From Numidum massiliense (GTDB taxonomy: Bacteria > Bacillota > Bacilli > Thermoactinomycetales > Novibacillaceae): a stretch of DNA of 64,000 bases. Below are positions 5,407 to 43,240 of this stretch, piece after piece. Where the stretch lies: contig NZ_CTDZ01000009.1 in NCBI RefSeq assembly GCF_001375555.1, positions 1,791,758-1,855,757 on the forward strand, written 5' to 3'. The notes under the pieces are model-generated. The model was not told the DNA's origin and made no database searches. It saw only the letters and a list, made by a program, of their open reading frames with translations. Positions within the stretch are counted from its first letter, which is position 1, and every line of letters starts with the position of its first letter. The position numbers and the translations under genes are program-made.

Positions 5407-8400
5407 GACCGCAACGACTAGTCGTTTCAATTCCTCATAGGTAAGATCGCAAGCTGTTAAACGCATCTCACAGTATCAATGATGCGTGTTTCAATTCCTC
5501 ATAGGTAAGATCGCAAGGCGTCATCTCGCGCAGCTTCCTTCCGTCGTACGACCGATGTTTCAATTCCTCATAGGTAAGATCGTAAGGACGTCGTCCACAA
5601 TTTCTGAAAGGGAATGAAACCGTTTCAATTCCTCATAGGTAAGATCGTAAGTAGTCGCGCATCGGTGTAGATTTCTCGGCACCGCTCCCAGTTTCAATTC
5701 CTCATAGGTAAGATCGTAAGGTTCCGCTCCGGCACATTGATGTTCGACGTGTCGGAGTTTCAATTCCTCATAGGTAAGATCGTAAGAGGAAACGGTGTCG
5801 GTTGGGGAGAAGTCTCCATCGACATGTTTCAATTCCTCATAGGTAAGATCGTAAGTATAAACAGCGACGGAATAGTATCTTTGCCGAACCAATGTTTCAA
5901 TTCCTCATAGGTAAGATCGTAAGACATGATCGACCATGCAGTACAGGCGCGTGTAAAGGCGGTTTCAATTCCTCATAGGTAAGATCGTAAGCCGGAAACG
6001 TCTTTATTGATAGCGTTTCTTGATTATGTTTCAATTCCTCATAGGTAAGATCGTAAGAAGGAGATTCTCTGATGGCATACGCTCGTTTGTTATGTTTCAA
6101 TTCCTCATAGGTAAGATCGTAAGGCGTTGAGCTTCGCGCATATCTAAATAGAGGCGATGTTTCAATTCCTCATAGGTAAGATCGTAAGTATCTCAGCGGG
6201 ATTGCGTATGCACTACTTGGCGCGCGTTTCAATTCCTCATAGGTAAGATCGTAAGACTGGACAAGTGTATCTAGACGAGGGCGACTACATCGTTTCAATT
6301 CCTCATAGGTAAGATCGTAAGTTTACTCCGACGCTCGACCTACTTGCGGAAGTAGAGTTTCAATTCCTCATAGGTAAGATCGTAAGCGACGGGAAACCGT
6401 TGGGGATTCCAGAAAAATTCAAGTTTCAATTCCTCATAGGTAAGATCGTAAGGTTACAAAGAGAAACTGAAGGAAGAGCAGCAGCGCGAGTTTCAATTCC
6501 TCATAGGTAAGATCGTAAGGTTACAAAGAGAAACTGAAGGAAGAGCAGCAGCGCGAGTTTCAATTCCTCATAGGTAAGATCGTAAGGGGGCTGTATGCCC
6601 CAGAGCTTCGAGACCACTACTAGTTTCAATTCCTCATAGGTAAGATCGTAAGGTACGATCGTAGCGCAAGAACTTCACGGTCGGATCCTTGTTTCAATTC
6701 CTCATAGGTAAGATCGTAAGAGCAAATATGACGCTGCCCGCTGGCAGCGACCGTTCATGTTTCAATTCCTCATAGGTAAGATCGTAAGTCTATTTTTCTA
6801 GCTTCGGACGCATATATTGTGACGTTTCAATTCCTCATAGGTAAGATCGTAAGTGAGAAACTGCGAGATAGAAAATGTGACGGATGCGAGTTTCAATTCC
6901 TCATAGGTAAGATCGTAAGCGCGATCGCCGATCTTGACTCGCGTTGTCCAGCCGGTTTCAATTCCTCATAGGTAAGATCGTAAGCGGACACTTCTGTTTG
7001 CTACGGTGTCAGAATTTGTGTTTCAATTCCTCATAGGTAAGATCGTAAGCGACTGAATATCCATGAAGCGAAGCATTTCGTCGTTTGTGTTTCAATTCCT
7101 CATAGGTAAGATCGTAAGCGTGATTGACGTGGCCACGACGTACAGCCCCCGCAGTTTCAATTCCTCATAGGTAAGATCGTAAGGATATACGACTAGCGAA
7201 CGCCTCGGGGCGCGGTACAGGGTTTCAATTCCTCATAGGTAAGATCGTAAGGCCCCCACCGCTTTTCGGCCTCCACGGCAGTCATCGTTTCAATTCCTCA
7301 TAGGTAAGATCGTAAGCATGACCGCCGATGATGTGGAACTGCTTTTCGTCCCACGTTTCAATTCCTCATAGGTAAGATCGTAAGACTCATACCGCCCAGC
7401 GGGCTTGTCTTTGCGGAACCAGTTTCAATTCCTCATAGGTAAGATCGTAAGGCATTTGTTCGCTCTCCATTACGCACCGCTCCCTTTTTGTTTCAATTCC
7501 TCATAGGTAAGATCGTAAGTCGCGCCTGACACCGCTTTGACCCGCGACATGCTCGCCTGTTTCAATTCCTCATAGGTAAGATCGTAAGGTGTTCGCCTCG
7601 TATCTCCATGTCATTCCACCCCGGTTTCAATTCCTCATAGGTAAGATCGTAAGTTCGAATCAATGCCGCCGACCCTCTGGCGCAAGCGGGTTTCAATTCC
7701 TCATAGGTAAGATCGTAAGCGGTTTCGTTTTCGGTGACTAGTCTACTGATTAATGTGTTTCAATTCCTCATAGGTAAGATCGTAAGGATAGAGTAGAAGC
7801 AGAGCTGACAGGAGCCTGAGCCGTTTCAATTCCTCATAGGTAAGATCGTAAGTTATTCTTTTCGGCGTGGCGGCTTACGCCGTGTTTCCGTTTCAATTCC
7901 TCATAGGTAAGATCGTAAGCGTGCTTTGGCTCCGGCGCATCGATAACAAAACTATGAGTTTCAATTCCTCATAGGTAAGATCGTAAGGCACAGAAACAAA
8001 GGCAGCCGGGCTACCGCGATCGTAGGTTTCAATTCCTCATAGGTAAGATCGTAAGAATCAAACCCAAGCCGCGGTATTTGTTCGGGTTTATGTTTCAATT
8101 CCTCATAGGTAAGATCGTAAGATCGAACTCTTCTATCGAAGGCAAGTCGCGGTTATAAGTTTCAATTCCTCATAGGTAAGATCGTAAGAGGACACCCAAG
8201 GTGATAGCGATACAGTCGAAAAAAGTTTCAATTCCTCATAGGTAAGATCGTAAGCGCGTAGTACGGCGGCACAAACACGCCCAGGTGTTGGTGTTTCAAT
8301 TCCTCATAGGTAAGATCGTAAGAATTCCAATTGAGCGCGTTCGCTCGTACTCCCTCTTTGTTTCAATTCCTCATAGGTAAGATCGTAAGTTGGAAAAACA

Positions 8401-8926
8401 GTGGGCAGAACAGGAGCAGATTAATGTTTCAATTCCTCATAGGTAAGATCGTAAGTCGGCGTGCATACGGCGTGTTCCATACCAGTCGTCCGTTTCAATT
8501 CCTCATAGGTAAGATCGTAAGCGGAGGATAGTCTTAGCACGCTGTCAGAGGCGCTCGTGTTTCAATTCCTCATAGGTAAGATCGTAAGACTCACCTGCTG
8601 TTCCTCGATAGAAAATCATTTCGTTCGTTTCAATTCCTCATAGGTAAGATCGTAAGTTTACAACCACTATTTTCAAACTCATTAAGCTGCTGTTTCAATT
8701 CCTCATAGGTAAGATCGTAAGGGTTTCACTTCTCCGGTTGACTTGACTACTTTTGTGTTTCAATTCCTCATAGGTAAGATCGTAAGGTGAGAGATTTCCA
8801 CGGGGATGCTAGGTATAATCTGTTTCAATTCCTCATAGGTAAGATCGTAAGCTATTAAGCCCCTATAGTAACTTGGACATCACTAAACACTTTAAGTTAT
8901 ACTAGTGATGAAAGGGGCAGAATCAA

Positions 8927-9238
8927 ATGAAACGCCGTCAGTTCACCAAGGAATTTAAAATCCAAGTCGCAAAGGAAGCCATGGAGGTTGGTAACCAAGC
9001 GCTAGTTGCTCGCCGCTATGATCTCGGTTCTAACTTGCTTAACCGATGGGTTCGCGAATATAAGGACGGGCACTACGGGGACGTCCCGATCGAATCCGCC
9101 CAACCACGCGAATTCAGTGATCTTGCTCAGGAAAATGATCAGCTAAAACGGTTGTTGGGCGAAAAGGATTTAGAAATTGCCATTTTGCGTGATCTTGTAA
9201 AAAAGCAGCACCCTCACTTGCTGAAAAGATTGAAGTAG
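8927..9238 (+). CDS. IS3-family OrfA (copy 1)
   Basis: A 103-aa DNA-binding protein. It has an N-terminal helix-turn-helix (FTKEFKIQVAKEAME ... ALVARRYDLGSNLLNRWVRE) and a C-terminal leucine zipper-like segment (LAQENDQLKRLLGEKDLEIAIL). AGGGGC at about 8912-8917 precedes the ATG. The heptamer AAAAAAG at 9199-9205 is a typical -1 slippery site; slipping there joins it to OrfB to make the full transposase. Confidence 0.93.
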   Translation: MKRRQFTKEFKIQVAKEAMEVGNQALVARRYDLGSNLLNRWVREYKDGHYGDVPIESAQPREFSDLAQENDQLKRLLGEKDLEIAILRDLVKKQHPHLLKRLK

Positions 9239-10155
9239 CGGACAAGTGGATTTCTAAGGGATACCCGATCCAAACCGTTTTACGGATTGTCCACGTACCG
9301 CGTTCCACCTATTACTATCAGAAACACTATCGGGTGAAGGAGAAGAAAGTAAGTGGGGGGAGACCGGCACCAGGTTACTCCTTCACAAACAGCGGGCAAA
9401 AAGTGTCCGACGAACAAATTAAAGAATGGCTTATGGAGCTCGTCTCGGGTGATGGCTACGCGTATGGGTACCGAAAATTAACGGTGGCGCTCCGTTCGAC
9501 GTACGATTTAGTCATTAATAAGAAAAAAGTGTACCGTCTCTGCAAACGGTTAGGCATCTTACTGCCGCAGCGACGGAAGCGAATCCGCCACCCTAGGCGC
9601 CTTGCACGTAACCGCCTCGTTGAGCGATCGAATGAGCTGTGGGAAACAGACATCAAGTATGGGTACATTGCCGGAGAAAACCGCTTTTTCTTCCTGCTTT
9701 CCTACATTGACGTTTATGACCGTTCGATTATTGACTATCATGTTGGATTAGCTTGCGAAGGTCAAGACGCTGTTCAGGTGCTACAACGAGCGCTTTCGAC
9801 ACGCGGGCTTCAGGAGGCACAAGAAAAGCCGATCATCCGGACGGACAATGGTCCACAGTTCGTATCTAAAGTATTCGAAGAAGCTTGTGAACACTACGGT
9901 TGTGAGCACGAACGTATTCCGCCGAACACACCGAATAAAAATGCCCATATTGAGGCGTTTCATCGGATCGTTGAGGACGAATGCTTCAACAAGTATTCCT
10001 TTGAGACGTACGAGGAAGCATATCGTACCGTCATAGGCTTTATGGACTTTTATAACAACCGCCGCATACACGGTAGTATTGGGGACATGAGCCCCGCGCA
10101 GTTTTTCCATGCGCATCAAACATCTTCGTTGCGCACGAAAGCCGTTCGACTCTGA
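9205..10155 (+). CDS. IS3-family OrfB / transposase frame (copy 1)
   Basis: DDE integrase-core transposase part, reached by -1 frameshift at 9199-9205. After slippage the frame reads AAPSLAEKIEVADKWISKGY without a stop and continues into the HTH_21 region (SGDGYAYGYRKLTVALR) and the rve core: LWETDIKYG (Asp), IIRTDNGPQFVS (Asp) and PNKNAHIEAFHRI (Glu), then RRIHGSIGDMSPAQF. All three catalytic residues are present. An internal start at 9334 would yield OrfB alone. Confidence 0.93.
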   Translation, partial: AAPSLAEKIEVADKWISKGYPIQTVLRIVHVPRSTYYYQKHYRVKEKKVSGGRPAPGYSFTNSGQKVSDEQIKEWLMELVSGDGYAYGYRKLTVALRSTYDLVINKKKVYRLCKRLGILLPQRRKRIRHPRRLARNRLVERSNELWETDIKYGYIAGENRFFFLLSYIDVYDRSIIDYHVGLACEGQDAVQVLQRALSTRGLQEAQEKPIIRTDNGPQFVSKVFEEACEHYGCEHERIPPNTPNKNAHIEAFHRIVEDECFNKYSFETYEEAYRTVIGFMDFYNNRRIHGSIGDMSPAQFFHAHQTSSLRTKAVRL

Positions 10156-11755
10156 TCCTTCCCTTTCGTCTTCCAAGCCAACAGCCGCTGTAAGACGTGA
10201 CGTCAAGGGCGAGCGAAAGCGAGGGCGTAGCCTTTACCCTTGACGGAAGGTCTGAAGCGACTACACTTCTATTGACGAAAGGAAGCGAGAACCAGAGATA
10301 ACGTGAGCTTGTAGTTATGTATGTCCAGTTTTAAGGGGTTTATCCGGTAAGCGGCAAGGTTAGGGTTAGCTTTGATTGGTACACTGAGTTTCAATTCCTC
10401 ATAGGTAAGATCGTAAGCGAATTGGTGTATCAAGGAAAAGTTCTCCACGAGAAGTTTCAATTCCTCATAGGTAAGATCGTAAGGCTTTCATGACTTTATT
10501 TGTGTACGTGGTTCGTTGCACTTGTTTCAATTCCTCATAGGTAAGATCGTAAGGGAAGAGCCTAGAGAAGTCGTACTCAAGGCAAAGTGGGTTTCAATTC
10601 CTCATAGGTAAGATCGTAAGGAAAAGTGGGCGAGAGAAAATGACGCTCCATCGCTGTTTCAATTCCTCATAGGTAAGATCGTAAGCGGACAACCAAACAG
10701 CAGAAGCATATCCGTCAGTCAGCGGTTTCAATTCCTCATAGGTAAGATCGTAAGGAAGTCTTACTAGGCCATGGCGTGCGGATCATCTCCGTTGTTTCAA
10801 TTCCTCATAGGTAAGATCGTAAGTTCATTCGATCCCTCCTTATTCTGATGTGGAATACTGTTTCAATTCCTCATAGGTAAGATCGTAAGGTGTCGGGTCG
10901 TAGTCAATACCGTCGGGCTTTTTGGTTTCAATTCCTCATAGGTAAGATCGTAAGGAGACTGCCCTCTTGTCGGTAGCCAGCTGCCACGGTTTCAATTCCT
11001 CATAGGTAAGATCGTAAGAAGTTCTCCTCAAACGCCATTTTTCGCTTCATCGAAGAGTTTCAATTCCTCATAGGTAAGATCGTAAGTGGCAAGCATATAT
11101 TCCAGTGAGTCCTGGAACTCGTGAGTTTCAATTCCTCATAGGTAAGATCGTAAGTCCGGCATCACCCTTTTCCCTTCCCAGTCCCGAGCGAAGTTTCAAT
11201 TCCTCATAGGTAAGATCGTAAGGTCTGCGACTGAAAGCCACGACTACTTTATCGCGGCGCTGTTTCAATTCCTCATAGGTAAGATCGTAAGCCGTCTGTA
11301 TTACAATCCGGGGTATAATTTTTCTAAGGAGTTTCAATTCCTCATAGGTAAGATCGTAAGTTTCCTGCAACCGCACCTCTTCGCGTTGCCTATGCTGTTT
11401 CAATTCCTCATAGGTAAGATCGTAAGCACTCGTCTTTGTAGTAGTTTGGACCGTACCGGCGCTGTTTCAATTCCTCATAGGTAAGATCGTAAGCTTTTAT
11501 CACCGGATGGTTCGGTGGCGGGGGGTTGTTTCAATTCCTCATAGGTAAGATCGTAAGATTATGATTCCAGGAACTCCTTTTTCCAGAGCTCAAGGTTTCA
11601 ATTCCTCATAGGTAAGATCGTAAGCTTTTTGCATTTGATACAGCAGTATGCCCCGTCATCGTTTCAATTCCTCATAGGTAAGATCGTAAGTTTAGAGAAA
11701 AACCTTTCATATTTCTTCGTGTCTTGTTTCAATTCCTCATAGGTAAGATCGTAAG

Positions 11756-11950
11756 CCCAAAAAACCCTTGAAACTACTACTAATCATACATTAGTCATCA
11801 CACGATATACAACCTTTTCGTTAAACCGAAAACAATGCGTATCACATGGTAATCCCTTTCTTTCTTGCCCTTTCTCACAAATACTCGCTTTTTCAAATTG
11901 TCGTCGATCCCCCCGGGGTTACAACGCCATAGAGGGTCGACGACAAAAAA
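11756..11950 (-). promoter_or_regulatory. Leader of CRISPR array 1 with conserved dyad
   Basis: This A/T-rich region lies between cas2 and the first leader-proximal repeat. It resembles 43045-43240 beside array 2 in two blocks. The first is the array-adjacent 55 bp (shared + strand words: CCAAAAAA, CTACTA, ATACATTA, ATCACACGA, ACAACC). The second is a 10-bp inverted repeat, TTGTCGTCGA at 11898-11907 and TCGACGACAA at 11937-11946, around a G+C-rich centre with CCCCGGGGTTACAACGC. The block order and the distance to the array (142 bp here, 141 bp there) are conserved. This is where crRNA transcription and spacer integration should begin. The rest of 11951-12103 shows nothing further. Confidence 0.85.
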
Positions 11951-12103: not shown

Positions 12104-12367
12104 TCACAAAATGAATTCTTCGCCGCCCTTCTTCAGTCCCATCTCCTCACGCTTTGAATACTTCTGCGTGCGGAACGTATAAAAGATCACCGAATCCTCC
12201 TCCTCATTCATAAGACGCTCTAACTCCATCTTCAATTTTACATAATTGGCGTTAGATATTTCCCCTTCTAGAACGGAGTTTTGCACCCAGTGTAAATACT
12301 TACGGGCAATCTTCAAAGCCTTCGCAACACGTTTTTCGTTGAAATCATATACAAGTATAACAAACAT
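12104..12367 (-). CDS. cas2: CRISPR-associated endonuclease Cas2
   Basis: An 87-aa ferredoxin-fold protein. The N-terminal VILVYDF has the conserved Asp of beta-1, followed by KIARKYLHWVQNSVLEGEIS and VIFYTFR, all as in Cas2 of type I-B loci. With Cas1 it forms the spacer integrase. The ATG at 12367 has AAGGAGGTG just upstream. It lies 276 bp downstream of cas1, unusually far because these genes often overlap. 12368-12643 shows no gene but could hold a separate promoter. The gene is followed by the leader of array 1. Confidence 0.95.
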   Translation of the reverse strand: MFVILVYDFNEKRVAKALKIARKYLHWVQNSVLEGEISNANYVKLKMELERLMNEEEDSVIFYTFRTQKYSKREEMGLKKGGEEFIL

Positions 12368-12643: not shown

Positions 12644-13648
12644 TCACCACAACGATTGATACGGTTCATATAACCGTTCATCCAGAAAGTGTTTCTGGAT
12701 TTTGTACAGTTCGAGCCGAATTAGGCGGCGGTAGGAGACAGATTTCCCCAAGTGGCGGTGGTTGACAGTCGTTTTCATCCGCTTGTCCAATTCTTGCACG
12801 AACTTCTTCCTTCCGGTCTCCGACAATAAGATCCCGTCTGTGTGCCCGTCAAAATCTTTCTTTGTAAGCATCTTCTTGTTAACGAGCGAAAAAATGAGGC
12901 GATCAACCATGATCGGTTTAAAAATCTCTGCCACATCCAAATTTAGTGAAAATCGACGGAAGTTCGTCGCGTGTAAATAGCCGATCCGTGGATCTAAAAA
13001 TGTCTTATATATCTCACTCAACACCGTCGTATAGCAAATCGAATTTCCAAAACTAATCATCGCATTGACCCGGTTTTTTGGGGGTCGTTTCGTCCTCTTC
13101 TCAAATACGAAGTCGGGGTTGTTCATTATGTAGTCAAACGACTGGTAATACCGCTCGCGGGCGTGACCTTCCACTGCCATCAATTCTTCCACTGTCTCCG
13201 TCTCTGCAAGCTGTGATTGATCACTTTTCATCTGTATTAGCAATTCTTCTAAAACATCCCTACCAGATGCAACTCGACCTCGATAATACTTCAATACTTG
13301 CATCATTTGCGCGATTGAACCGTCCACAAAGGCGCGTGCTAAGGCAAGTCGTTTCTCTTGATCAATATAATGTTCAACTTGTTTTACGACGACATGGCCG
13401 GCATTGTAATGTTCCCGTGGGTAAAAAGTTCCCACGTAATACCCATGATGGTTAAAATAATGGACACAAATCTCCTTTTGTGACGCAAATTCAAGAAAGC
13501 GCTTCGAGACATCTACTTCGCCAAAAATGAAAATGTCGTTCGTGTCCTCGACAGGAATGTACTTCCGCCTTTCCTCCGATTCAAAGTAAAGACTGTTGTC
13601 TTTTCGCCTTAGTTCCCCGCTTTGAAAAATATACAACGTTTTCCTCAT
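12644..13648 (-). CDS. cas1: CRISPR-associated endonuclease/integrase Cas1, type I-B
   Basis: A 334-aa protein with the Cas1 beta domain (TLYIFQSGELRRKDNS; VEDTNDIFIFGEVDVSKRFL) and the all-alpha catalytic domain. The metal-binding residues are seen in TTVLSEIYKTF (Glu), IGYLHATN (His) and LNLDVAEIFKPIMVDRL (acidic cluster). Together with Cas2 it inserts new spacers next to the leader. It starts at the ATG at 13648 with GGAGG 8 nt upstream and follows cas4 closely. The HH(G)YYVGTFYPRE region matches I-B Cas1. No lesion is seen. Confidence 0.96.
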   Translation of the reverse strand: MRKTLYIFQSGELRRKDNSLYFESEERRKYIPVEDTNDIFIFGEVDVSKRFLEFASQKEICVHYFNHHGYYVGTFYPREHYNAGHVVVKQVEHYIDQEKRLALARAFVDGSIAQMMQVLKYYRGRVASGRDVLEELLIQMKSDQSQLAETETVEELMAVEGHARERYYQSFDYIMNNPDFVFEKRTKRPPKNRVNAMISFGNSICYTTVLSEIYKTFLDPRIGYLHATNFRRFSLNLDVAEIFKPIMVDRLIFSLVNKKMLTKKDFDGHTDGILLSETGRKKFVQELDKRMKTTVNHRHLGKSVSYRRLIRLELYKIQKHFLDERLYEPYQSLW

Positions 13649-13677: not shown

Positions 13678-14211
13678 TCAGCCCTCCGCCCAACAGTACT
13701 CGCGATACCCACACTGGCGACAGAGGTTGATTTTCTTCGGGGGAGGCGGCACCGGCATTTTCGCAATCCGCCGAATTTCACCAATGGCCTCCTCTAGCGC
13801 CGCCACCATTTCGTCCGTTAACGCGACACTCTCTTTCTTCTTTTCTTCCGGAAAAAGCAATTCGCCCCTTGCCGAAATACCCATCTGTCGCAATGTATAC
13901 AAATAAAAAGCGAGCTGATGACGGGCACTCATTACAAACTTCGACGACTTCTTTACCTCTTTAACGACGAGCTCACCGGACTCTTTTTTCATGCGATCTA
14001 TTTTAATCGCATCGATAGCAACTTCTTTTTTTTCGCGACCATAGCGATACTCGTGAATAAACCGCCCAATCTCAATGTTCTCATCCTCTTGATCAGGGGT
14101 AATTTGATGTTTGTTCAACCACACTTCTCGCTGACAAATAAAGTAATACCATATATCTGTCCCCGTCACTGGCATTTCCTGATCCCCATCTTTTGTCTGC
14201 AACTCTTCCAC
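13678..14211 (-). CDS. cas4: CRISPR-associated exonuclease Cas4
   Basis: A 177-aa RecB-like nuclease that trims prespacers and helps select the PAM end. The four Cys of the 4Fe-4S cluster are visible: Cys26 (WYYFICQREVW) and Cys164, Cys167, Cys173 (LCRQCGYREYC). Nuclease motifs include GRFIHEY, AIDAIKIDRM and LVVKEVKKSSK (Glu-Val-Lys), with the QLAFYLYTL motif downstream. The GTG at 14211 has AGGAGG at 8-nt spacing; the GTG at 14220 overlaps that site and is less likely. The gene lies between cas3 and cas1. Confidence 0.94.
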   Translation of the reverse strand: MEELQTKDGDQEMPVTGTDIWYYFICQREVWLNKHQITPDQEDENIEIGRFIHEYRYGREKKEVAIDAIKIDRMKKESGELVVKEVKKSSKFVMSARHQLAFYLYTLRQMGISARGELLFPEEKKKESVALTDEMVAALEEAIGEIRRIAKMPVPPPPKKINLCRQCGYREYCWAEG

Positions 14212-14287
14212 CGCTTTCACCTCCTAAAAGTTCCCTTAACAGACGCATTGGACAGCTTTTGAAACTTTACTAACTTTATTAGCGCAG

Positions 14288-28038: not shown

Positions 28039-29384
28039 TTAACTCAGTAGTGTCCCTTCCGCTAATACGATTTTATTTGCTACCTTCTGGAAAAACGGCT
28101 TCATCTCGCTTACAAACTCAACGATGGTACGCTCAATATTTTGTGCCGAAATACGTTCTATGTTCATCTCAGAGTGGTTAAGGTTGTTGCGAAATTTGAC
28201 CAGATTACTGAACGGCTTTAACTGCTCACGATACGGTTCGATAACTGCAATTACGCGCTTAATTGTTTCGATGTCACCGCGCCATTCTTCCTCCGGCTTT
28301 TTTTGAAGGTAGACGCTTAGTGCACCGCCCACACTTTCTCGACTATCTACATCTAGTTCATCCAAGCCAGTTAATTTGCAAACAAACGATAGAGATGACG
28401 TACTCCTGAAGTAATGTGTACGCCAGTTGAATCAAACCGTGATCGACACACCAGCTCACAGCGTAATAACTGTTCATTACTTCATCGTCGGTGAAGTCAG
28501 CGTATTTTGCCTCAATTTCGTCGACGAGCGGTAGGAGTGGGCGCACGTGCTTCGTTTTAAGCTGCTTCACACGCTCAACCTCTCGCCTGAGTTCGCGTAT
28601 TTTATCGATGTATGACCGACCACGGCACGTTTGAAAGGCCAAACTCGTTTGTTCCATGCGATTGGCCAACTTCTGTAGTTTCCCGAACTGCCTGCGGTCT
28701 TCTTTATCGACTTTGTCGGATTCGTTAGCATCGCGTGTGAAAAACCGCTGCGCCTCACCTTCCGTCAGTTCTTTAATTTTGGACGCGTCACCTGTCCGCA
28801 AATATTGGTCGACCCCGTTCGTCCAGTCGAGTAGCAAGGCCATGTTCGTGAAATCGACAATCGGTGCCAACCGCTCCACAACATTCATCGCCTTGATCTC
28901 GGGGAAACTTCCCAACTCTTCGATCCACCCATACATCATCTTTCCAATTGTCGCCCGCTTCAAAAAGCGCGCATAGTTAAGGACGATAAGGGCAACTACT
29001 GGATTGGTACGAAAACTGTGCGTAACGTCAAAATAAATGTCGTCACCGTTTTCAATTTCGTTCATAATCGCGTCGAACAATCCCCAGTTCGCCGCCTCAT
29101 CTTGGCTACTCGAAATATCGACCAGCTAATTTTCCCGCTTTACGTAAGGCGTGCACGGCGGAGTACTCTGCACTTATTCTTTCTGGTTGATTGTCAATCT
29201 CCGGCATTAGTGTCTGGCAGTGACGAAACCAATCGGCTATTTTGACTTTCGTTTCCTCTGTTATTGTTTTCGCTTGAAGGTCGACAGAAAAATCCGTGTT
29301 GTGACCTTCTTTCTTTATCATGGTGAATAAGTTTCGTGGAAAATTAAAGGAAATTCCGCAAGTAATAACGATTGTATGGTACAT
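28039..29384 (-). pseudogene. Broken CARF-HEPN effector, Csx1/TM1812-like, in three frames
   Basis: Three reading-frame pieces. 29106-29384 (ATG with AAGGAGG upstream) reads MYHTIVITCGISFNFPRN to AEYSAVHALRKAGKL and looks like the start of a CARF Rossmann domain. 28358-29117 holds the rest of a TM1812-type CARF, with GDDIYFDVTHSFRTNP and the linker. 28039-28365 holds the HEPN end, with RNNLNH matching the RxxxxH active site. The second junction is a simple one-base shift in GTTTGTTTGC near 28380-28391: in the other frame VCKLTGLDELD is restored. At the first junction (about 29105-29117) sequence seems to be missing as well as shifted. Csx1-like proteins are RNases activated by cyclic oligoadenylate made by Cas10, so this copy has probably lost that function. 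A sequencing error could explain the second break but not easily the first. Confidence 0.82.
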
Positions 29385-29857
29385 AAGTTCCTCCTTAACA
29401 TGTGCGTTTAATCCTTCAAGTACATACGCAATCATGCACGGCACTCGCAGCTATTCATTTTATAAACGTCTCACTACATTTTGACTGACAAACATACAAA
29501 CCTGCAAACCTGCACCTCTCCAAAATAGCTGTCTACCAAAGAACATATTTCGACATAAAGTGCTGTTTTTCCTTCTTTAACGGGAATTGTATTGGCATCG
29601 TTCTCTTCCCCAACGGCAAATGACGATTGCTAATGATAAAAGTATACCGTATAGATTGTGCCAAAACCGGTCAGCAAACATACGTTCCCTACATAATCTT
29701 TTTTTGAGAAAGTATTCAAACTTAATTTGTGAGACTACCTACCGTACTTGCTGGCACCTATACGTCTCATTGAATGACTCACTGAACATACGTCTTGGTA
29801 CCGAGTCATGACGGCGCAATAGACGAAAAAAACGAAGGAAAGCTTATGTAGCTGACG
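29385..29857. other. Intergenic, no gene seen
   Basis: This A/T-rich stretch has no ORF with coding character and no ribosome binding site. It lies between the broken Csx1 gene, whose promoter it probably contains, and a relic CRISPR repeat. Confidence 0.5.
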
Positions 29858-29925
29858 GTTTCAATTCCTCATAGGTGAGATTCGAACGGCTACACAGGGA
29901 TGCTAGAATGTATTTGTTTCAACTC
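29858..29925 (-). repeat. Relic CRISPR repeat-spacer-partial repeat
   Basis: A solitary 30-bp repeat at 29858-29887 matches the array repeats at its handle end (GAATTGAAAC on the minus strand) but differs at the other end (GTTCGAATCTCACC). After 28 bp a second copy begins (GTTTCAACTC, 29916-29925) and breaks off. This is a third variant of the same repeat family and looks like the stump of an old array. Confidence 0.8.
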
Positions 29926-29926
29926 A

Positions 29927-30361: not shown

Positions 30362-30563
30362 GCCAGTTCCATGGTCTTAGCATAATCAGAACCGACATGA
30401 GCGACGACGCGCATTCGGCACAAACCATAACCCGAACCTTTTGCTCCGCCTAAATATAAACGTTCGCTATCAAGCGATTGCTCCTGGGCACACGTTTTGG
30501 GCACTCATTAAAATAGAAGCCTCACTTGCCGAAAGTATTACACCTGTTCTTGACGAAGTTCAT
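30358..30563 (-). pseudogene. Remnant of a RAMP-like gene after the Cas10-like gene
   Basis: The Cas10-like gene ends in an ATGA overlap: an ATG at 30561-30563 starts MNFVKNR and soon needs a frameshift to continue as VILSASEASILMSAQNVCPG followed by AIA and a stop. About 100 bp on, another frame reads CAQEQSLDSERLYLGGAKGS and GYGLCRMRVVAHVGSD. A beta-strand N terminus ending in (Y/C)(I/V)PG..(I)A and a C-terminal glycine loop LGG.KGSGYG.C are what RAMP proteins (for example Csx10/Cas5/Cas7 types) show at their two ends. The middle of the gene has been deleted and the end truncated by an IS21 remnant. The family call is inference from short segments. Confidence 0.5.
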
Positions 30564-32128
30564 TGCTCGTTTTCCGCGACTAAAGCTGCATACTCCGAGT
30601 TCGCTTCGCCAAAGGTCTCTTGCACGATTTGAACGATTCGCTCGCAACCTTCCGTCTGGTTCGTTTCAAAAAACAGCTCGTATTGCTCCCACCCCGAATA
30701 AATGACTCGCTTTATTTTTTCCAAGATGGAGCTACTAATCGCTTTCTCCTTCTGCCCGACCTTATCCTCCTTTTGCCCTTCATTAATTTTTTGCACTAAC
30801 CGAATAAAAGCACCGTAACTGTAAACGCCATCTTGTGCCGCTTCCTCTTGATCAATTCGCAAAGGTTTAAGGTGAAAGCGCTCTTCATATTGCCCGTGTC
30901 TGACGTAGTCCTCGTATGTATGATCACTGTCGACTTGCCCTTGGACAATCTCCCAATCGATAAACGACGCATTCGCGGCCTTACTGCCTTCCGTTCTGAC
31001 TTTGTGCATCGACTCTTTGGCACGGTGACACAATGCTTCTGCTGTGCGAACGGCCTCAAAAAACGGATAGTTGTATTTAACAATCGCTACTCCCGCGCAT
31101 GCGGTTAAGCCCTCTCCTTGTTGATCTCGGTCCATTAATTCGTGTAATACTTCCCGATCCCTGTTCTTTTCGAGGGATAATTTTTTAATATTTTCAACAA
31201 TCGTCTTGGCTAGTTCAATTGCGTGTTCCGCTTCGACGATGAGGCATATGTCGTCCCCTGCCATCACAATCGGGGTGACAAGTATTTTTTGCAATTTGCC
31301 CTCTGTATCAGCGCTATACACAGATGCCGCATGAGTCAGTAAAGCATTACTGACTGCTTGACTATACAAATTATCGATCGCTTCACTAAACCGCTTTAGT
31401 TCCTTAAACGTCGTAATCTTGCTGACCATTTCTCCCATTTTATTGCCGTCGATCGCAATGACACCGATATAACTTTTGCCGTCTTCCCCTTTCTGATAGT
31501 CTTGCAATTCGTCCGTTATTTCGATGGGAGCGCTTGGTGTGTTCGCTTCGTTGTTGGACTCTAGTTTTTTCTTTAAAGACCGGAACAAATATTTCTTTGA
31601 CAGATCATAATCCCTATCTTGCTTAACGTCACACCGTTCTGCTTGTCCCGTCTCGTCAATCTGCTCCACACCATATGTCCAACGCCGGAACTTAGCCCGT
31701 CATTTGTCTTTTAATTTATCTGCTTTTTCATGCAGTAACTCGCGAATTTTCTTTTCCTTAATCCCATCGATTCCACCGCAAACGCTAACAACTTCGTCCT
31801 CATCATCGTCAACCAAACTTATGTATAGCTCCAGATCAGGATAGTCTCTAAGGACTCTCCCGGAGTATGTTCGGACAAAGTGTTCTGCTTGTTCTTTAGT
31901 AGCGAAGCGAACGATGCTGTTTCCTCCACCTGAGTAGACAAACTCTACTTGCTCGCTGAAATGCCTCGTTAAATGCCGGCTTAACGAAATAAGCTTTTCC
32001 GGGGGCTCAGGGAGCTCTTCTGTCACGCACTTGATGATAAAGGAGTTATACAGGTTATCCCGGAGCTTATTATGTTTATAAATAAACTCCTGTTTCTGAG
32101 ATACGTCGATAAACGCATACGTTGCCAT
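30560..32128 (-). pseudogene. Cas10-like double-palm protein outside the cmr operon, one in-frame TGA
   Basis: One reading frame of 522 codons broken only by TGA at codon 143 (31700-31702). The N-terminal part, YAFIDVSQKQEFIYKHNKLR and FVYSGGGNSIVRF, matches the first palm of Cmr2 (compare IGPVQSFIASARKTEDLW). After the stop, ten codons continue without interruption (RAKFRRWTYG) into the second palm: IAIDGNKMGEM at about 224-234 (compare LDGDNMGKL in Cmr2) and VMAGDDICLIV with GDD at 291-293. The acidic residues that bind metal are kept; GGDD is changed to AGDD. No HD domain or clear zinc finger is seen. The ATG at 32128 has AGGAGGG at ideal spacing. A restart at the GTG at 31669 would give only the second palm. 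The gene is outside the cmr operon and next to a nuclease gene, suggesting a separate nucleotide-signalling module. Confidence 0.8.
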
Positions 32129-32192
32129 TAAAACCCTCCTGTTCTTTTGAGTGGAATGACCCTTACCTTGCGGGCCGATCCCGTTATTCGGT

Positions 32193-33164
32193 TCAACTTT
32201 TCCTTTGTTTATTGTTTGCTGCTTTCTCATTTTCCATTTCCGCGACGATTTTATTGAAGGCCTTGGCGTACTCGAAATGCGGAAAAAGCATCGGGTTGTT
32301 GATGAGCATGAGCAGCTGGTTTAATTGCAGGTTTAAAGAGAGTAGTGGGTTGCCGGTTACCTTTAAATCTTTTAATGTGTTGGTTAGGTCATGGTCACTA
32401 TCCTTTTTAAACTTTAACTCAGCGTCACTCCGAAGCTCTTTTTTGATTGGGAATTTAATATGAAGCGGTTCGTCCGAATTTTTATCAATAGTTCTCTCTT
32501 CCCACATATTTAATCGCTTCGCCCACCATCCTAGCGCCTTGTCTTCATATTTAATTGAAACCTGAAATCCCTCCATATCGCCTTGCATTTTTTGAATTAT
32601 GAAGTCAAAGTAATCCCCTAGCTTTTCTTTATTTTTTTCTAGAGTGCTTTCCCGTGCGTTTGACTTAAGAGATGCTAAGATTTTGATGGGTTGTGTATTT
32701 ATTTGTGATTCATTTGTGATTCCAGTAGTATAGCCGCTAACAATTCGCGCGATACCAGACCTCCTTGTCTTTAATTTCCCAATACAATCAGCCCATTCTA
32801 TCAACTTGTTATCTGAAAAATCTTTACTCTTGCATTCTATTACAATAGCAACAGCTTCAATCGGAATAAATTTAAGTGTATTATATTGAAAGACGTACGG
32901 CGTATATTGCTCATCAAACACTGCAATATCGACTTCCTTGGAAACCTCCCCATAAGAATCAATGATCATGACCCCTTGAGCAATGGAGAACTTCCTAGGT
33001 ATAATGCTTCTAAAAAATTTTATCCACATTTCCTCACGATGGTTACCGGTTAAACCACCATGCTTAGAAGCTATATCCATTTCTTCTACCATCATGTTGT
33101 TAACATAATTATAGTTATCATATATTTTTCCGAATACTTCAGCAGAATTCTTTTCCTGCGCCAT
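32193..33164 (-). CDS. DUF6602-like protein, PD-(D/E)XK-type nuclease candidate
   Basis: A 323-aa protein. Residues about 35-115 resemble DUF6602: HREEMWIKFFRSIIPRKFSI, then GVMIIDSYGEVSKEVDIAVF and PIEAVAIVIECKSKDF. Asp79, Glu110 and Lys112 form a D...ExK pattern with a preceding helix, as in restriction-endonuclease-fold nucleases. The remaining 200 residues are helical and unfamiliar. The ATG at 33164 has AAGGA upstream. It lies 64 bp upstream of the Cas10-like gene on the same strand, so the two are probably one operon. I infer a nuclease effector for this module; a restriction-like or nicking role is an alternative. The reading frame is intact. Confidence 0.72.
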   Translation of the reverse strand: MAQEKNSAEVFGKIYDNYNYVNNMMVEEMDIASKHGGLTGNHREEMWIKFFRSIIPRKFSIAQGVMIIDSYGEVSKEVDIAVFDEQYTPYVFQYNTLKFIPIEAVAIVIECKSKDFSDNKLIEWADCIGKLKTRRSGIARIVSGYTTGITNESQINTQPIKILASLKSNARESTLEKNKEKLGDYFDFIIQKMQGDMEGFQVSIKYEDKALGWWAKRLNMWEERTIDKNSDEPLHIKFPIKKELRSDAELKFKKDSDHDLTNTLKDLKVTGNPLLSLNLQLNQLLMLINNPMLFPHFEYAKAFNKIVAEMENEKAANNKQRKS

Positions 33165-35608: not shown

Positions 35609-38600
35609 GTTTCAATTCCTCATAGGTAAGATCAAAGCGGAGATAGTCCGCAAGTCATGATTACGACTACGCCGTTTCAATTCCTCATAGGTAAGATCAA
35701 AGCATTTACCATGAAAAAAGCTGAATTGAAAGAGTTGTTGATGTTTCAATTCCTCATAGGTAAGATCAAAGCCCCTCGACCAACATTGCGTTTGTACGAT
35801 CGCTTTGACCCTGTTTCAATTCCTCATAGGTAAGATCAAAGCAAAAGCCGAACAATGTACCGCAAAAAAACATCCGAGTTTCAATTCCTCATAGGTAAGA
35901 TCAAAGCCTACCACCGGATAGAAGAACTGAAAGCGGAGGTCGCGTTTCAATTCCTCATAGGTAAGATCAAAGCTGGCTTCGGCGCAACATTTGAAACGGC
36001 GTGCTTCGTTTCAATTCCTCATAGGTAAGATCAAAGCGCGCATATATAGTGTGAGCGAAAAACAGGAGGAAACGTTTCAATTCCTCATAGGTAAGATCAA
36101 AGCATTGGCCTAGGTCTACTTGCGCGGCACTTGCGAGGTTGTTTCAATTCCTCATAGGTAAGATCAAAGCCGTGAACATGTCCGTTGGCCTCGCGAAAGG
36201 CGGAAAGGTTTCAATTCCTCATAGGTAAGATCAAAGCGTATGCATCGCCCATAGCGCCCGCAGCCGGCCAACCCCGGTTTCAATTCCTCATAGGTAAGAT
36301 CAAAGCTGTCGTGGTGTGCAATCGGCTTGATGCGCGTACGGAAGTTTCAATTCCTCATAGGTAAGATCAAAGCATTACCGTGCCCGCGTCTTTCCACGCC
36401 TGCAAGCGCAGTTTCAATTCCTCATAGGTAAGATCAAAGCACTGAAGCGCCCCTCTAAATGCGGAGGGGCATTGTCGTTTCAATTCCTCATAGGTAAGAT
36501 CAAAGCACTCGGGCCGGCTACAGTAGAGTACGGCGACGGAGCCGAGTTTCAATTCCTCATAGGTAAGATCAAAGCCCGCGCCCGAGCCGCGGCATGAAAC
36601 GGAGACTATCGTTTCAATTCCTCATAGGTAAGATCAAAGCGCTTTCGTGCCCGTTTCGATGAGCTTGCGGAACATCGGGTTTCAATTCCTCATAGGTAAG
36701 ATCAAAGCTTGAATCACCTCTTTATCTATATCATACACTGCTGCGTTTCAATTCCTCATAGGTAAGATCAAAGCGGAGGACGAGGTGGACTTCGAAAGGT
36801 ACGCAATGATGTTTCAATTCCTCATAGGTAAGATCAAAGCCATTTTGGCTGTATGACTGATACAGCGTTACGAAGGGAGTTTCAATTCCTCATAGGTAAG
36901 ATCAAAGCCGCCCGTACCCGTCGACATGAAACTGAACCATTCGTGTTTCAATTCCTCATAGGTAAGATCAAAGCTCAGCTTGTGAGAGACCCCTTTTTGT
37001 TCTCAAGTCCTGTTTCAATTCCTCATAGGTAAGATCAAAGCTACCGTCGTTGACGGCCGCGTACTCTGCCGGTGATATTTGTTTCAATTCCTCATAGGTA
37101 AGATCAAAGCGGTACTTGTGCCTACCGGATTAGCATTCGCAATTCCAGTTTCAATTCCTCATAGGTAAGATCAAAGCGCCGGGCACATCGTCGCGGTTCC
37201 GGGGTTCGTTCGGTAAGTTTCAATTCCTCATAGGTAAGATCAAAGCGGTGGCAGGAGATTCTGGCCGATCGTTGTTGATCCGGGTTTCAATTCCTCATAG
37301 GTAAGATCAAAGCCCATCAAACGGTATTGATGGTATTATGCGGATCCTTGTGGTTTCAATTCCTCATAGGTAAGATCAAAGCTCTCTTTTGCAGAAGGCG
37401 TAAACCTGAAGTCGTACAGCTCAGCGTTTCAATTCCTCATAGGTAAGATCAAAGCACTTTTTTCATCCTTAGCTTTGACACCACCACATCCGGGTTTCAA
37501 TTCCTCATAGGTAAGATCAAAGCGATGCGGTTGTTAAAGTTGTCCATCGAGTTAGACGGCGGTTTCAATTCCTCATAGGTAAGATCAAAGCCGCCGTTCA
37601 CCTTCGTTCGTTTCTTCCGGCGTAAATGGTTTCAATTCCTCATAGGTAAGATCAAAGCAAGAAATAGCACTCGCACAAATTACTGTTTCAGCAGGGTTTC
37701 AATTCCTCATAGGTAAGATCAAAGCGCGACTGACGGCACCCCAAACGTCTTCAACCTCCCAGTCGTGTTTCAATTCCTCATAGGTAAGATCAAAGCCCTT
37801 ACGAAACGGAGTGGTACGATCGCATGATTACGCGTTTCAATTCCTCATAGGTAAGATCAAAGCAAAATCAGCGACCAAGGGAACGTCCTGCACGATACCG
37901 GTTTCAATTCCTCATAGGTAAGATCAAAGCCCGCTGATCATGGAGACAGGATTCATACGGTTCAAGCAGTTTCAATTCCTCATAGGTAAGATCAAAGCAA
38001 ACTGAACGGAAACCCGCGCGGGAGGTGGACCCGCGTTTCAATTCCTCATAGGTAAGATCAAAGCAGTTGATTGCATTCGCCATCAGTCATTTCCTCCTTG
38101 TTTCAATTCCTCATAGGTAAGATCAAAGCCCAGTGAGGCGATGGATCTTTTGGAGCGGGCCGAGGACTGTTTCAATTCCTCATAGGTAAGATCAAAGCCG
38201 TCTGGTTGTGTTGACTGTACAAGGGAAGACCGAAGTTTCAATTCCTCATAGGTAAGATCAAAGCCGGCGGTGATTCTATTTCCGTTGTCGGAAAACAACC
38301 GAGTTTCAATTCCTCATAGGTAAGATCAAAGCTCAGCGTGTCTCCGTCCAGCTTGATCGTGTCCATATCGTTTCAATTCCTCATAGGTAAGATCAAAGCG
38401 CCGCATTACGCGAGGGCGTGAGGATCGGGCATGAGTGTTTCAATTCCTCATAGGTAAGATCAAAGCGTCCGCCCAGTTGATTGAGTGTCTCGATCTGCCA
38501 TGGTTTCAATTCCTCATAGGTAAGATCAAAGCTGAATACCGGGATCTCTGTTCTATGCAGCCGATTGAGTTTCAATTCCTCATAGGTAAGATCAAAGCGT

Positions 38601-39099
38601 AGAGGCGCCGGAAGGAGGCGATATACTTCGCAAGTTTCAATTCCTCATAGGTAAGATCAAAGCTTAACCTCGCGGTCGATAGACCGTTCGCGAATCAAGT
38701 TTCAATTCCTCATAGGTAAGATCAAAGCCGCACCCATGATGTAACTACTGACAGCGGCATTCTCGAGTTTCAATTCCTCATAGGTAAGATCAAAGCCAGA
38801 ATATGGCGGCATGATATGCGCTCAAATGTATCCGTTTCAATTCCTCATAGGTAAGATCAAAGCCCCCGACCCACATCCGTAAGTCAGCACTCATCGACGG
38901 TTTCAATTCGGATAAACCCCTTAAAACTGGACATACATAACTACAAGCTCACGTTATCTCTGGTTCTCGCTTCCTTTCGTCAATAGAAGTGTAGTCGCTT
39001 CAGACCTTCCGTCAAGGGTAAAGGCTACGCCCTCGCTTTCGCTCGCCCTTGACGTCACGTCTTACAGCGGCTGTTGGCTTGGAAGACGAAAGGGAAGGA

Positions 39100-40050
39100 T
39101 CAGAGTCGAACGGCTTTCGTGCGCAACGAAGATGTTTGATGCGCATGGAAAAACTGCGCGGGGCTCATGTCCCCAATACTACCGTGTATGCGGCGGTTGT
39201 TATAAAAGTCCATAAAGCCTATGACGGTACGATATGCTTCCTCGTACGTCTCAAAGGAATACTTGTTGAAGCATTCGTCCTCAACGATCCGATGAAACGC
39301 CTCAATATGGGCATTTTTATTCGGTGTGTTCGGCGGAATACGTTCGTGCTCACAACCGTAGTGTTCACAAGCTTCTTCGAATACTTTAGATACGAACTGT
39401 GGACCATTGTCCGTCCGGATGATCGGCTTTTCTTGTGCCTCCTGAAGCCCGCGTGTCGAAAGCGCTCGTTGTAGCACCTGAACAGCGTCTTGACCTTCGC
39501 AAGCTAATCCAACATGATAGTCAATAATCGAACGGTCATAAACGTCAATGTAGGAAAGCAGGAAGAAAAAGCGGTTTTCTCCGGCAATGTACCCATACTT
39601 GATGTCTGTTTCCCACAGCTCATTCGATCGCTCAACGAGGCGGTTACGTGCAAGGCGCCTAGGGTGGCGGATTCGCTTCCGTCGCTGCGGCAGTAAGATG
39701 CCTAACCGTTTGCAGAGACGGTACACTTTTTTCTTATTAATGACTAAATCGTACGTCGAACGGAGCGCCACCGTTAATTTTCGGTACCCATACGCGTAGC
39801 CATCACCCGAGACGAGCTCCATAAGCCATTCTTTAATTTGTTCGTCGGACACTTTTTGCCCGCTGTTTGTGAAGGAGTAACCTGGTGCCGGTCTCCCCCC
39901 ACTTACTTTCTTCTCCTTCACCCGATAGTGTTTCTGATAGTAATAGGTGGAACGCGGTACGTGGACAATCCGTAAAACGGTTTGGATCGGGTATCCCTTA
40001 GAAATCCACTTGTCCGCTACTTCAATCTTTTCAGCAAGTGAGGGTGCTGC
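39100..40050 (-). CDS. IS3-family OrfB / transposase frame (copy 3)
   Basis: Same translation as the OrfB frames at 9205 and 33700; the DDE residues are intact. It is expressed as a -1 frameshift fusion from OrfA at 40017-40328. Confidence 0.93.
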   Translation of the reverse strand, partial: AAPSLAEKIEVADKWISKGYPIQTVLRIVHVPRSTYYYQKHYRVKEKKVSGGRPAPGYSFTNSGQKVSDEQIKEWLMELVSGDGYAYGYRKLTVALRSTYDLVINKKKVYRLCKRLGILLPQRRKRIRHPRRLARNRLVERSNELWETDIKYGYIAGENRFFFLLSYIDVYDRSIIDYHVGLACEGQDAVQVLQRALSTRGLQEAQEKPIIRTDNGPQFVSKVFEEACEHYGCEHERIPPNTPNKNAHIEAFHRIVEDECFNKYSFETYEEAYRTVIGFMDFYNNRRIHGSIGDMSPAQFFHAHQTSSLRTKAVRL

Positions 40051-40328
40051 TTTTTTACAAGATCACGCAAAATGGCAATTTCTAAATCCTTTTCGCCCAA
40101 CAACCGTTTTAGCTGATCATTTTCCTGAGCAAGATCACTGAATTCGCGTGGTTGGGCGGATTCGATCGGGACGTCCCCGTAGTGCCCGTCCTTATATTCG
40201 CGAACCCATCGGTTAAGCAAGTTAGAACCGAGATCATAGCGGCGAGCAACTAGCGCTTGGTTACCAACCTCCATGGCTTCCTTTGCGACTTGGATTTTAA
40301 ATTCCTTGGTGAACTGACGGCGTTTCAT
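40017..40328 (-). CDS. IS3-family OrfA (copy 3)
   Basis: A 103-aa OrfA with the same translation as the copies at 8927 and 33422. The AAAAAAG slippery site lies near its 3' end at 40050-40056. Confidence 0.93.
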   Translation of the reverse strand: MKRRQFTKEFKIQVAKEAMEVGNQALVARRYDLGSNLLNRWVREYKDGHYGDVPIESAQPREFSDLAQENDQLKRLLGEKDLEIAILRDLVKKQHPHLLKRLK

Positions 40329-43044
40329 TTGATTCTGCCCCTTTCATCACTAGTATAACTTAAAGTGTTTAGTGATGTCCAAGTTACTATAGGGGCTTAA
40401 TAGAATTCCTCATAGGTAAGATCAAAGCGGTGGACCGAATTAGAGCGCTAGGAAATGCTGTTGTACCTGTTTCAATTCCTCATAGGTAAGATCAAAGCAA
40501 AGTGTACAAGGATCACATCGAGATACATACCTTCGTTTCAATTCCTCATAGGTAAGATCAAAGCTTAGCGCCGTTCAAAGCGCTACTCAAAGCGTGGTCG
40601 TTTCAATTCCTCATAGGTAAGATCAAAGCTTTCAGCTCCGTCTTGGCGTTGCGGATCGCGCGTTCAAGTTTCAATTCCTCATAGGTAAGATCAAAGCTTA
40701 AGGGACTGCCTAATTTCATCTTGGCCAATGTCGTTTCAATTCCTCATAGGTAAGATCAAAGCATTTAACCTCGCGGTCGATAGACCGTTCGCGAATCAAG
40801 TTTCAATTCCTCATAGGTAAGATCAAAGCGTCCCGCACGTGGCCGTCAGCGGATACAAGCCGCAGTTTCAATTCCTCATAGGTAAGATCAAAGCCCAACC
40901 GTTATCGAGGTGAGCGGTCGGAGGTATACGCTGGTTTCAATTCCTCATAGGTAAGATCAAAGCTCCCTTAACCTGCAAGCCCTGCTTATAAAAGTTATGT
41001 TTCAATTCCTCATAGGTAAGATCAAAGCTGGAAGTTACGTCCAAAAACGATAGGAAACGAAAGTGCGTTTCAATTCCTCATAGGTAAGATCAAAGCGTTT
41101 TCAACGACACGCCGGAACGCGGTCTAACCTGGTTTCAATTCCTCATAGGTAAGATCAAAGCGTATCCGCTTGCTTCGGCGTCTTGATCTCTGAGCGTAGT
41201 TTCAATTCCTCATAGGTAAGATCAAAGCCAATGCTGCCGTTGATGATGCGGCGCATCAAAGCGAGTTTCAATTCCTCATAGGTAAGATCAAAGCTCGAAA
41301 CGGACTTTTTCGTGCATCAGCCATGTCGCGGTTTCAATTCCTCATAGGTAAGATCAAAGCTCGCAGCGACCGGATTGTTTGAAGTGGCGTTCCAAGTTTC
41401 AATTCCTCATAGGTAAGATCAAAGCTCCAGCGCATCTCAAACCGTTCCACACACCAATCAACGTTTCAATTCCTCATAGGTAAGATCAAAGCGCCATCTC
41501 GTCGCCACGTTTCGCTGCCTTGGCAATCGAGTTTCAATTCCTCATAGGTAAGATCAAAGCTAAAAATGATAGACCCTATGGCGTGTTCAATAGAGGAGTT
41601 TCAATTCCTCATAGGTAAGATCAAAGCATTGAACGCTCCCCATTGACAACCAGTGTTCGCGAGTTTCAATTCCTCATAGGTAAGATCAAAGCGCCCTCAT
41701 TCTCTTTCAGCCGCTTCACGATGGCGAGGTTTCAATTCCTCATAGGTAAGATCAAAGCTCGCTACCCGCCGATGTCGACCGCGAGGAGTTCATCGAAGTT
41801 TCAATTCCTCATAGGTAAGATCAAAGCCTTTGACCGCGTCGGCCAACTCGCGTTTGTACGCCGGTTTCAATTCCTCATAGGTAAGATCAAAGCTACTAGT
41901 CCAACCACGAACGGAAATACGGCGGGGATGTTTCAATTCCTCATAGGTAAGATCAAAGCCACCCGCGGTTTCTCGCTGTAGAACTTTTGAACACTGGTTT
42001 CAATTCCTCATAGGTAAGATCAAAGCAAGGACAAAAACCCGAAAGCTCAGGGTCTATGGTACGAGGTTTCAATTCCTCATAGGTAAGATCAAAGCGGTCA
42101 CCTAGAAGAGACATGTTTTTCCCTCCTTCTGAGGTTTCAATTCCTCATAGGTAAGATCAAAGCTCATCGAGGAGACAGGGAGAACTCGGCGATATGACCG
42201 GGTTTCAATTCCTCATAGGTAAGATCAAAGCTCTTCAGCAGTTTTTATGTTCTCCTTACTCCAGTTCATGTTTCAATTCCTCATAGGTAAGATCAAAGCC
42301 CGCAGAACGGCACAGGCAATGATGCAAGCGTACGAGGTTTCAATTCCTCATAGGTAAGATCAAAGCCCGATATTGTCGCCAAGAAAATCCTTCGCAATTT
42401 CCTTCTGTTTCAATTCCTCATAGGTAAGATCAAAGCCGTGATGAACTCGTATTTGTTGTCGAGCTCGTTTCGCGAAGTTTCAATTCCTCATAGGTAAGAT
42501 CAAAGCGATCTCTTCCAGCCGTCGCGCCCACTCCATGCGTTCCGTTTCAATTCCTCATAGGTAAGATCAAAGCGTAAGGGACGCGAAAGAAAAGGCGAAT
42601 GATGAGGATAGGTTTCAATTCCTCATAGGTAAGATCAAAGCGGACAAAGTCTGTCTCCCGTTCCCCTTGTTGGTTTGGTTTCAATTCCTCATAGGTAAGA
42701 TCAAAGCGTGTCCGTTTGCCGTCGTTGCCCGTGGTCTCCCCTGTGGTTTCAATTCCTCATAGGTAAGATCAAAGCTTCCCACGTCATCGCCTGTTCTATG
42801 GCTTCGTAAACGTGTTTCAATTCCTCATAGGTAAGATCAAAGCGCGGTACCCGTACCCGACATTCACTTTCATGTGGTCGTAGTTTCAATTCCTCATAGG
42901 TAAGATCAAAGCCTGCCGCAGAAAAATTCGAGGAGTGGGTTTTCGACGTTTCAATTCCTCATAGGTAAGATCAAAGCAACCAGAAAGGTGACCATCACCA
43001 CTACCGGCATCCAAGTTTCAATTCCTCATAGGTAAGATCAAAGC

Positions 43045-43240
43045 CCAAAAAAACCTTGCTAGTGCTACTAAGTATACATTATGGATCACACGACAAACAA
43101 CCTACCCATCTAACTGAAACCATTACAAAACACAATCCTACCTTCCCCTTACTCCTCTATCCTCCCAAACCCTCCCCTTCTCATATTGTCGTCGATCTCC
43201 CGGGGTTACAACGCTATAGGAGGTCGACGACAAAAAAGCA
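43045..43240 (-). promoter_or_regulatory. Leader of CRISPR array 2 with conserved dyad
   Basis: It matches the leader of array 1 in its array-proximal block and in the dyad TTGTCGTCGA (43186-43195) / TCGACGACAA (43224-43233), with a nearly identical centre (CCCGGGGTTACAACGCTATAG). The dyad begins 141 bp from the last repeat. The sequence between the two blocks is pyrimidine-rich and not conserved, which makes the two conserved blocks stand out. 43241-43480 shows no gene. Confidence 0.85.

Follow-up and report, generated by a model that had tools for sequence, protein, structure and literature searches.

The CRISPR leaders of Numidum massiliense carry a 48-bp dyad that is conserved across Bacillota, linked to CRISPR arrays, phased to the leader-repeat junction and not to predicted promoters, changed symmetrically in its two arms, and linked to one clade of Cas1. 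We think it probable that this dyad is a DNA docking site for spacer acquisition, putatively bound by a protein and looping to the leader-repeat junction. Two such leaders lie in the window, the whole 64,000-nucleotide stretch of DNA that was analysed. Both arrays are transcribed on the minus strand, with repeats of the form ...CTTACCTATGAGGAATTGAAAC, and the locus encodes the type I-B genes cas2-cas1-cas4-cas3-cas5-cas7-cas8b-cas6 together with a type III-B cmr set (Table 1).

Table 1. Positions of the dyads, leader parts, arrays and adaptation genes in the window, and of inverted dyads at other loci.
Feature	Position	Strand	Sequence or composition	Remarks
Dyad of leader 1, 49 bp	11898..11946	-	TTGTCGTCGA CCCTCTATGGCGTTGTAACCCCGGGGGGA TCGACGACAA; half-sites 11937-11946 and 11898-11907	Covariance model E=7.5e-10, whole genome
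Dyad of leader 2, 48 bp	43186..43233	-	TTGTCGTCGA CCTCCTATAGCGTTGTAACCCCGGGAGA TCGACGACAA; half-sites 43224-43233 and 43186-43195	Covariance model E=9.8e-14, whole genome
Leader 1, dyad to first repeat, 142 bp	11756..11897	-		Distance class 139-144
Leader 2, dyad to first repeat, 141 bp	43045..43185	-
Leader-proximal conserved block, leader 1	11756..11783	-	-1 to -28	Profile of representative leaders
Leader-proximal conserved block, leader 2	43045..43072	-		Whole-leader alignment and profile of representative leaders
Best candidate promoter of array 1	11783..11812	-	TTGTAT-18-TATGAT	Downstream of dyad; L001, score 8.6, moderate
CRISPR array 1	5424..11755	-	30-nt repeat CTTACGATCTTACCTATGAGGAATTGAAAC	Interrupted by IS-like element 8927-10155
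CRISPR array 2	35609..43044	-	Repeat GCTTTGATCTTACCTATGAGGAATTGAAAC	Interrupted by IS-like element 39100-40328
cas2	12104..12367	-	Cas2-like C-terminus KGGEEFIL	From translation; stop codon 157 bp upstream of leader 1 dyad
cas1 (Cas1b)	12644..13648	-		Belongs to the Cas1 clade that tracks the dyad
cas4 (Cas4b)	13678..14220	-		Third adaptation gene
Inverted dyads near arrays of other repeats	L310 9236-9279; L311 16333-16376; L313 10008-10051; L314; L315 9838-9881

The exact 10-mer TTGTCGTCGA occurs only four times in the window, as the arms of the two dyads. The initial annotation had placed the dyads 142 and 141 bp from their arrays, and both were found there, the first repeats starting at 11755 and 43044. 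It had also described a nearly identical centre of 28-29 bp. The centres between the arms do measure 29 nt (leader 1) and 28 nt (leader 2) and share CCCGGGGTTACAACGC followed by one nucleotide and ATAG (TCCCGGGG in leader 2), but the earlier reading, CCCCGGGG, was one base off. Aligned over their whole length, the two leaders were nearly identical at the dyad and in the final ~60 bp before the repeat, with far lower identity between. The exact form of the dyad matched twice in the 3.76-Mb genome, and a reversed control pattern had no match, which is more than chance would give. A third array of the same genome has a leader with a one-mismatch copy, TTGTCGTCGACCCCTTGTAGCGTTGTTACCCTAGGGGATGGACGACAA, 144 bp from the first repeat. 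When a covariance model trained on relatives was run over the genome, the strong matches were these three array leaders, and the next match had E=0.4.

Several other features were observed in the window. An IS-like element with two ORFs (103 and 273 aa) is present in three copies (8927-10155, 33422-34650 and 39100-40328), of which at least two interrupt CRISPR arrays, and two neighbouring repeat-spacer units at 6422-6555 are identical, giving a duplicated spacer. Outside both arrays, at 29858-29926, a repeat-like sequence GTTTCAATTCCTCATAGGTGAGATTCGAACGG is followed after a short gap by GTTTCAACTC. Together they form a lone or degenerate pair of repeats, which may be CreTA-like or a relic. Csx1 (CARF-HEPN, 28039-29444) is split over two overlapping ORFs and adjoins an N-terminal fragment of a CARF-RelE protein, an arrangement that looks like decay. 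A Cas10-like protein split over two ORFs lies next to a NucC-like nuclease (30560-33173), away from the cmr operon, and a Moco riboswitch (RF01055) lies just past leader 2 at 43536-43728, on the strand opposite to the array.

The dyad model matched 132 of 398 Bacillota genomes at E≤0.1, roughly a third, and 29 of 61 close relatives at E≤0.001. Exact copies of the pattern were present in 27/398 genomes. Named genomes among the exact matches listed include Geobacillus, Paenibacillus, Thermoanaerobacter, Caloramator, Caldicoprobacter, Tissierella, Ureibacillus and Desulfofundulus. Among the matches listed, in named genomes, 108 of the 126 exact copies lay near CRISPR repeats, 94 of them within 260 bp of an array and 14 beside a single repeat-like sequence. 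Five others were at contig ends and 13 had neither, two of these having an unrelated centre and looking like chance matches. The repeats beside dyads were nearly all of type ..ACCTATRAGGRATTGAAAC. That the dyad is under selection, as initially proposed, is strongly supported: it is present in the leaders of relatives, and it is kept in leaders of very different Bacillota in which the adjoining leader bases are not. The plasmid collection searched held no relative of leader 1. Two dyads were matched in viral contigs; one (L143) has an unrelated centre. The other (L142, 12825-12872) lies on IMGVR_UViG_2687453591, a contig classed as viral in its catalogue, and is followed at 121 bp by an array; this may be the edge of a prophage or an array carried by a virus.

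In one genome the dyad was matched 29 times. At least 11 dyads lie within ~11 kb of genome G424, where leader and mini-array units stand in tandem with ~0.5-1 kb spacing (L358, L359), and several clustered dyads were seen in Paenibacillus tyrfis. Clusters of this kind would suit a recombination or duplication site that spreads leader-array cassettes, conservation then reflecting mobility and not adaptation. We give this reading only a slim chance, since the dyad flanks share no conserved ends in the position profile and since it predicts neither lineage-specific arms nor phased spacing.

Across leaders, the dyad length is almost invariant at 48 bp (47-49). The arms are nearly fixed, and an A-tract, A24-A28 (>92%), and G22 are kept in the centre. 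This profile of the centre and inner stem was taken from 114 sequences whose arms were exact by selection, and arm variation was read from a relaxed set of 74 sequences. In the latter, pair 4/45 was TA in 67, CG in 6 and TG in 1, pair 5/44 was CG in 66, TA in 7 and CA in 1, and pairs 2-10 held just one G-U cell. Besides TTGTCGTCGA, the arm sequences include the variants TTGCTGTCGA, TTGTTGTCGA and TTTCCGTCGA, and the two dyads read in one genome (G152) have the same variant arms. Symmetric, lineage-wise change of the arms with almost no G-U is what would be expected of two half-sites for one protein. The inner arms favour particular bases rather than pairing: positions 11/38 form a C.A mismatch in 64/114 sequences, and the inner arms of relatives are non-complementary, e.g. 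CCAGG/GGGGA. An extended hairpin model was dropped after its inner stem had been examined in the 114 sequences, where pairing was unsupported.

No conserved bases flank the dyad in the position profile. Conservation returns in the final ~28 bp ahead of the repeat, which end in GG; across representatives this proximal block has GG at -2/-1, A at -4, a T-rich stretch at -19 to -16 and AA at -28/-27. With the distal dyad and the proximal block conserved and the flanks and the DNA between them variable, the leader thus has two conserved parts.

The distance from dyad to first repeat was not constant. In 75 leaders deduplicated at 65% identity, distances fell into classes with means of 95.4, 107.3, 118.6, 130.3 and 141.9 bp, giving a period of 11.8 bp (bootstrap 11.5-12.1), with R reaching 0.62, whereas none of 5000 jittered sets exceeded 0.43 (p<2e-4). 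An earlier subset of leaders had given R of 0.67-0.71, and the fit at a period of 10.5 bp was poorer (R 0.32). Leaders were grouped by greedy clustering above background identity (background maximum 0.57), which was used instead of single-linkage clustering, as the latter over-merged the leaders and gave no phasing signal. With one leader drawn per family (39 families), R was at least 0.52 in every draw vs a 99% null value of 0.42. In seven families more than one distance class was represented, the classes differing by roughly one turn or several (119 and 131 in one case; 106, 118 and 154 in another), and whole-turn changes therefore recur. Distances in a later, fresh set of relatives were 103-105, 117-122, 129-131 and 140-144. 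The "fixed distance" of the initial annotation thus describes the window pair (142/141 bp) but gives way, across leaders, to steps of ~11.8 bp. As in phased upstream adaptation motifs, a conserved motif lies at a helically phased distance from the leader-repeat junction. The period of 11.8 bp exceeds the 10.5 bp of relaxed B-DNA. Periods above 11 bp are possible in vivo for loops of underwound DNA, and looping of such DNA could be the cause here.

Sigma-A-like promoter predictions, where good, fell between dyad and array and were better on the sense than on the antisense strand (p ~1e-7). One example is a predicted TTGACA-17-TATAAT between dyad and array in a Caloramator leader (L028), which ends 13 bp short of the repeat. 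Where the promoter is predicted on the array side of the dyad in this way, the pre-crRNA would not include the dyad. This placement is also what a transcriptional operator would have: a dimeric regulator on the dyad would turn the array promoter up or down, either from its upstream position or through a loop, with no role in integration. Activator sites upstream of promoters are often helically phased, and Csa3a of Sulfolobus also controls array transcription through a distal leader motif (PMC9456107). However, where promoters were well predicted, the dyad kept phase with the repeat (p 0.017 to <1e-3) while its distances to the best -10 prediction showed no periodicity (p 0.38 to 0.90), the distance from predicted promoter to array ranging from 13 to >70 bp. 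In addition, the N. massiliense genome has no further strong copies that would indicate a wider regulon, and the dyad follows a Cas1 clade. We therefore regard the operator, the main rival to a docking site, as unlikely. A promoter-phased activator was rejected on the same missing phase between dyad and predicted -10, and the role of core promoter element proposed at the outset is disfavoured as well.

Stable hairpins are predicted for both strands of the dyad (z -3.4 to -7.0) and the arms co-vary, so that a hairpin in an array-sense or antisense leader transcript, bound, processed or regulating crRNA production, has to be weighed. We judge it very unlikely. In many leaders a consensus promoter is predicted on the array side of the dyad, pairing of the inner stem often fails, the arms show almost no G-U intermediates in pairs 2-10, and near-helical phasing would not be expected of RNA; neither window dyad had an Rfam match at the gathering threshold. 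The same evidence disfavours the earlier suggestion that the transcript begins with an RNA hairpin. A terminator or insulator separating the cas operon (cas2) from the array seems scarcely credible. The dyad directly follows cas2 at several loci, and lies 157 bp after it in leader 1, but leaders away from cas genes have it as well, among them leader 2, that of the third array and some that follow an unrelated gene; no conserved T-tract of the kind that marks an intrinsic terminator follows it on the sense strand in the position profile, and the phasing would be left unexplained.

The distribution of the dyad followed that of one Cas1 clade. A dyad (E≤1e-4) was found in 83 of 91 genomes with a window-like Cas1 (E≤1e-105) vs 33 of 307 others (Fisher 2e-48). 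At E≤0.1 the count rose to 89/91, and in the two exceptions Cas1 has an in-frame stop (G394) or the assembly is fragmented (G077). A dyad at E≤1e-7 was present in 28 genomes outside this clade. Window-type Cas8b was found in just 30/398 genomes, so the Cas8b effector fails to explain the pattern. As Cas1 clade, repeat family and leader co-evolve, these data indicate association with the adaptation module, which is not proof of contact. Among the functions offered by the initial annotation, positioning of Cas1-Cas2 is the best supported, the dyad being in helical phase with the leader-repeat junction, not with predicted promoters, and tracking one Cas1 clade.

In a small number of leaders the dyad is inverted and lies 43-122 bp off, with other repeat families (Table 1). 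Repeats at these loci are, e.g., GTTTTTGACCCGACTATAGGGGACGGAAAC, the nearest often being 51-52 bp away; the orientation of the array at L315 is uncertain. Inverted dyads at arrays of other repeats are easier to reconcile with a DNA site.

We propose that the dyad acts as a double-stranded element, with inverted 10-bp half-sites 28 bp apart around a conserved A-tract centre. The two half-sites would be held by a dimeric factor, either a host protein or Cas1-Cas2(-Cas4) itself. The leader DNA between would loop, bringing the bound complex to the Cas1-Cas2 integrase seated on the proximal block and first repeat. Because of this looping, the dyad would have to face the right side of the helix and yet could sit 8 to 12 turns away. 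Against this docking model we count the period of 11.8 bp, the finding of no CARF-HTH regulator among the ORFs scanned in the cas neighbourhood of the window, the co-evolution of Cas1 clade with repeat family and leader, the dyads in genomes without this Cas1 clade, the inverted copies at 43-122 bp, and the fact that the promoters are predicted ones. In a bolder form, which we advance tentatively and at somewhat short of even confidence, the dyad binds a novel IHF-independent leader factor of Bacillota, or is a second Cas1-Cas2-Cas4 dock, looping over 8-12 turns, and serves as a general homing signal for acquisition, used by one Cas1 clade at I-B arrays and, inverted, at some others.

Bacillota are not generally known to have IHF. 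Work by Santiago-Frangos in 2021 reportedly dealt with IHF-dependent leaders of systems I-C, I-E, I-F and II-C, where it is said to matter how an upstream motif is phased to the site of integration; the present dyad, by contrast, belongs to I-B-type leaders of Bacillota. In the type I-A system of Sulfolobus islandicus, a leader-distal motif at -143 to -94 is bound by the Cas1 partner Csa3a and needed for efficient adaptation, its mutation lowering acquisition (PMC9456107). There too a distal motif stands apart from a leader-proximal block at the repeat junction, and the array-side edge of the dyad, at ~-95 to -144 in the main classes, gives a similar placement, not an identical extent. That system is archaeal, however, and no CARF-HTH regulator of the Csa3 type was among the ORFs scanned in the cas neighbourhood of the window; the 48-bp dyad is likened to its motif in position and putative role. 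In type I-F, leader inverted repeats contact Cas2 in an IHF-folded leader (PMC12259127); inverted half-sites upstream of the repeat are thus read as DNA by the integrase. Type I-F is IHF-dependent and proteobacterial, whereas the arms here, with their 28-bp centre, lie 95-144 bp away in leaders of Bacillota. By analogy, the dyad may resemble the Csa3a and I-F motifs in role, membership of either group not being implied. Leaders of Clostridioides difficile, also type I-B and from Bacillota, have inverted repeats upstream of their arrays (PMC8406132 Fig. S6). In the C. difficile arrays checked, the half-sites are TTTGCAGTGAGCG, span 109 bp overall and end ~52 bp from the repeat; they are unrelated in sequence to those of the window dyad. 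No CRISPR paper came up when the arm sequence itself was searched for in the open literature, and the work found on leaders and motifs concerned only I-A, I-E/F, II-A, V-A and C. difficile. The dyad is undescribed in the open literature searched; a 2025 survey of leader motifs (Buyukyoruk 2025) may already include it.

One prediction of the docking model is that whole-turn shifts of the dyad should be tolerated and half-turn shifts not. Another is that the arm TTGTCGTCGA should be recognised by a factor that changes in step with arm variants, TTGCTGTCGA for example, and the dyad could be used as bait for it. The dyad would also allow array orientation and orphan leaders to be read from sequence. 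It provides a precise, portable 48-bp candidate signal, present in roughly one in three of the sampled Bacillota genomes and accompanied by a partner Cas1 clade, and bears on how integrases locate the leader in bacteria that lack IHF, a question that arises for most type I-B systems.
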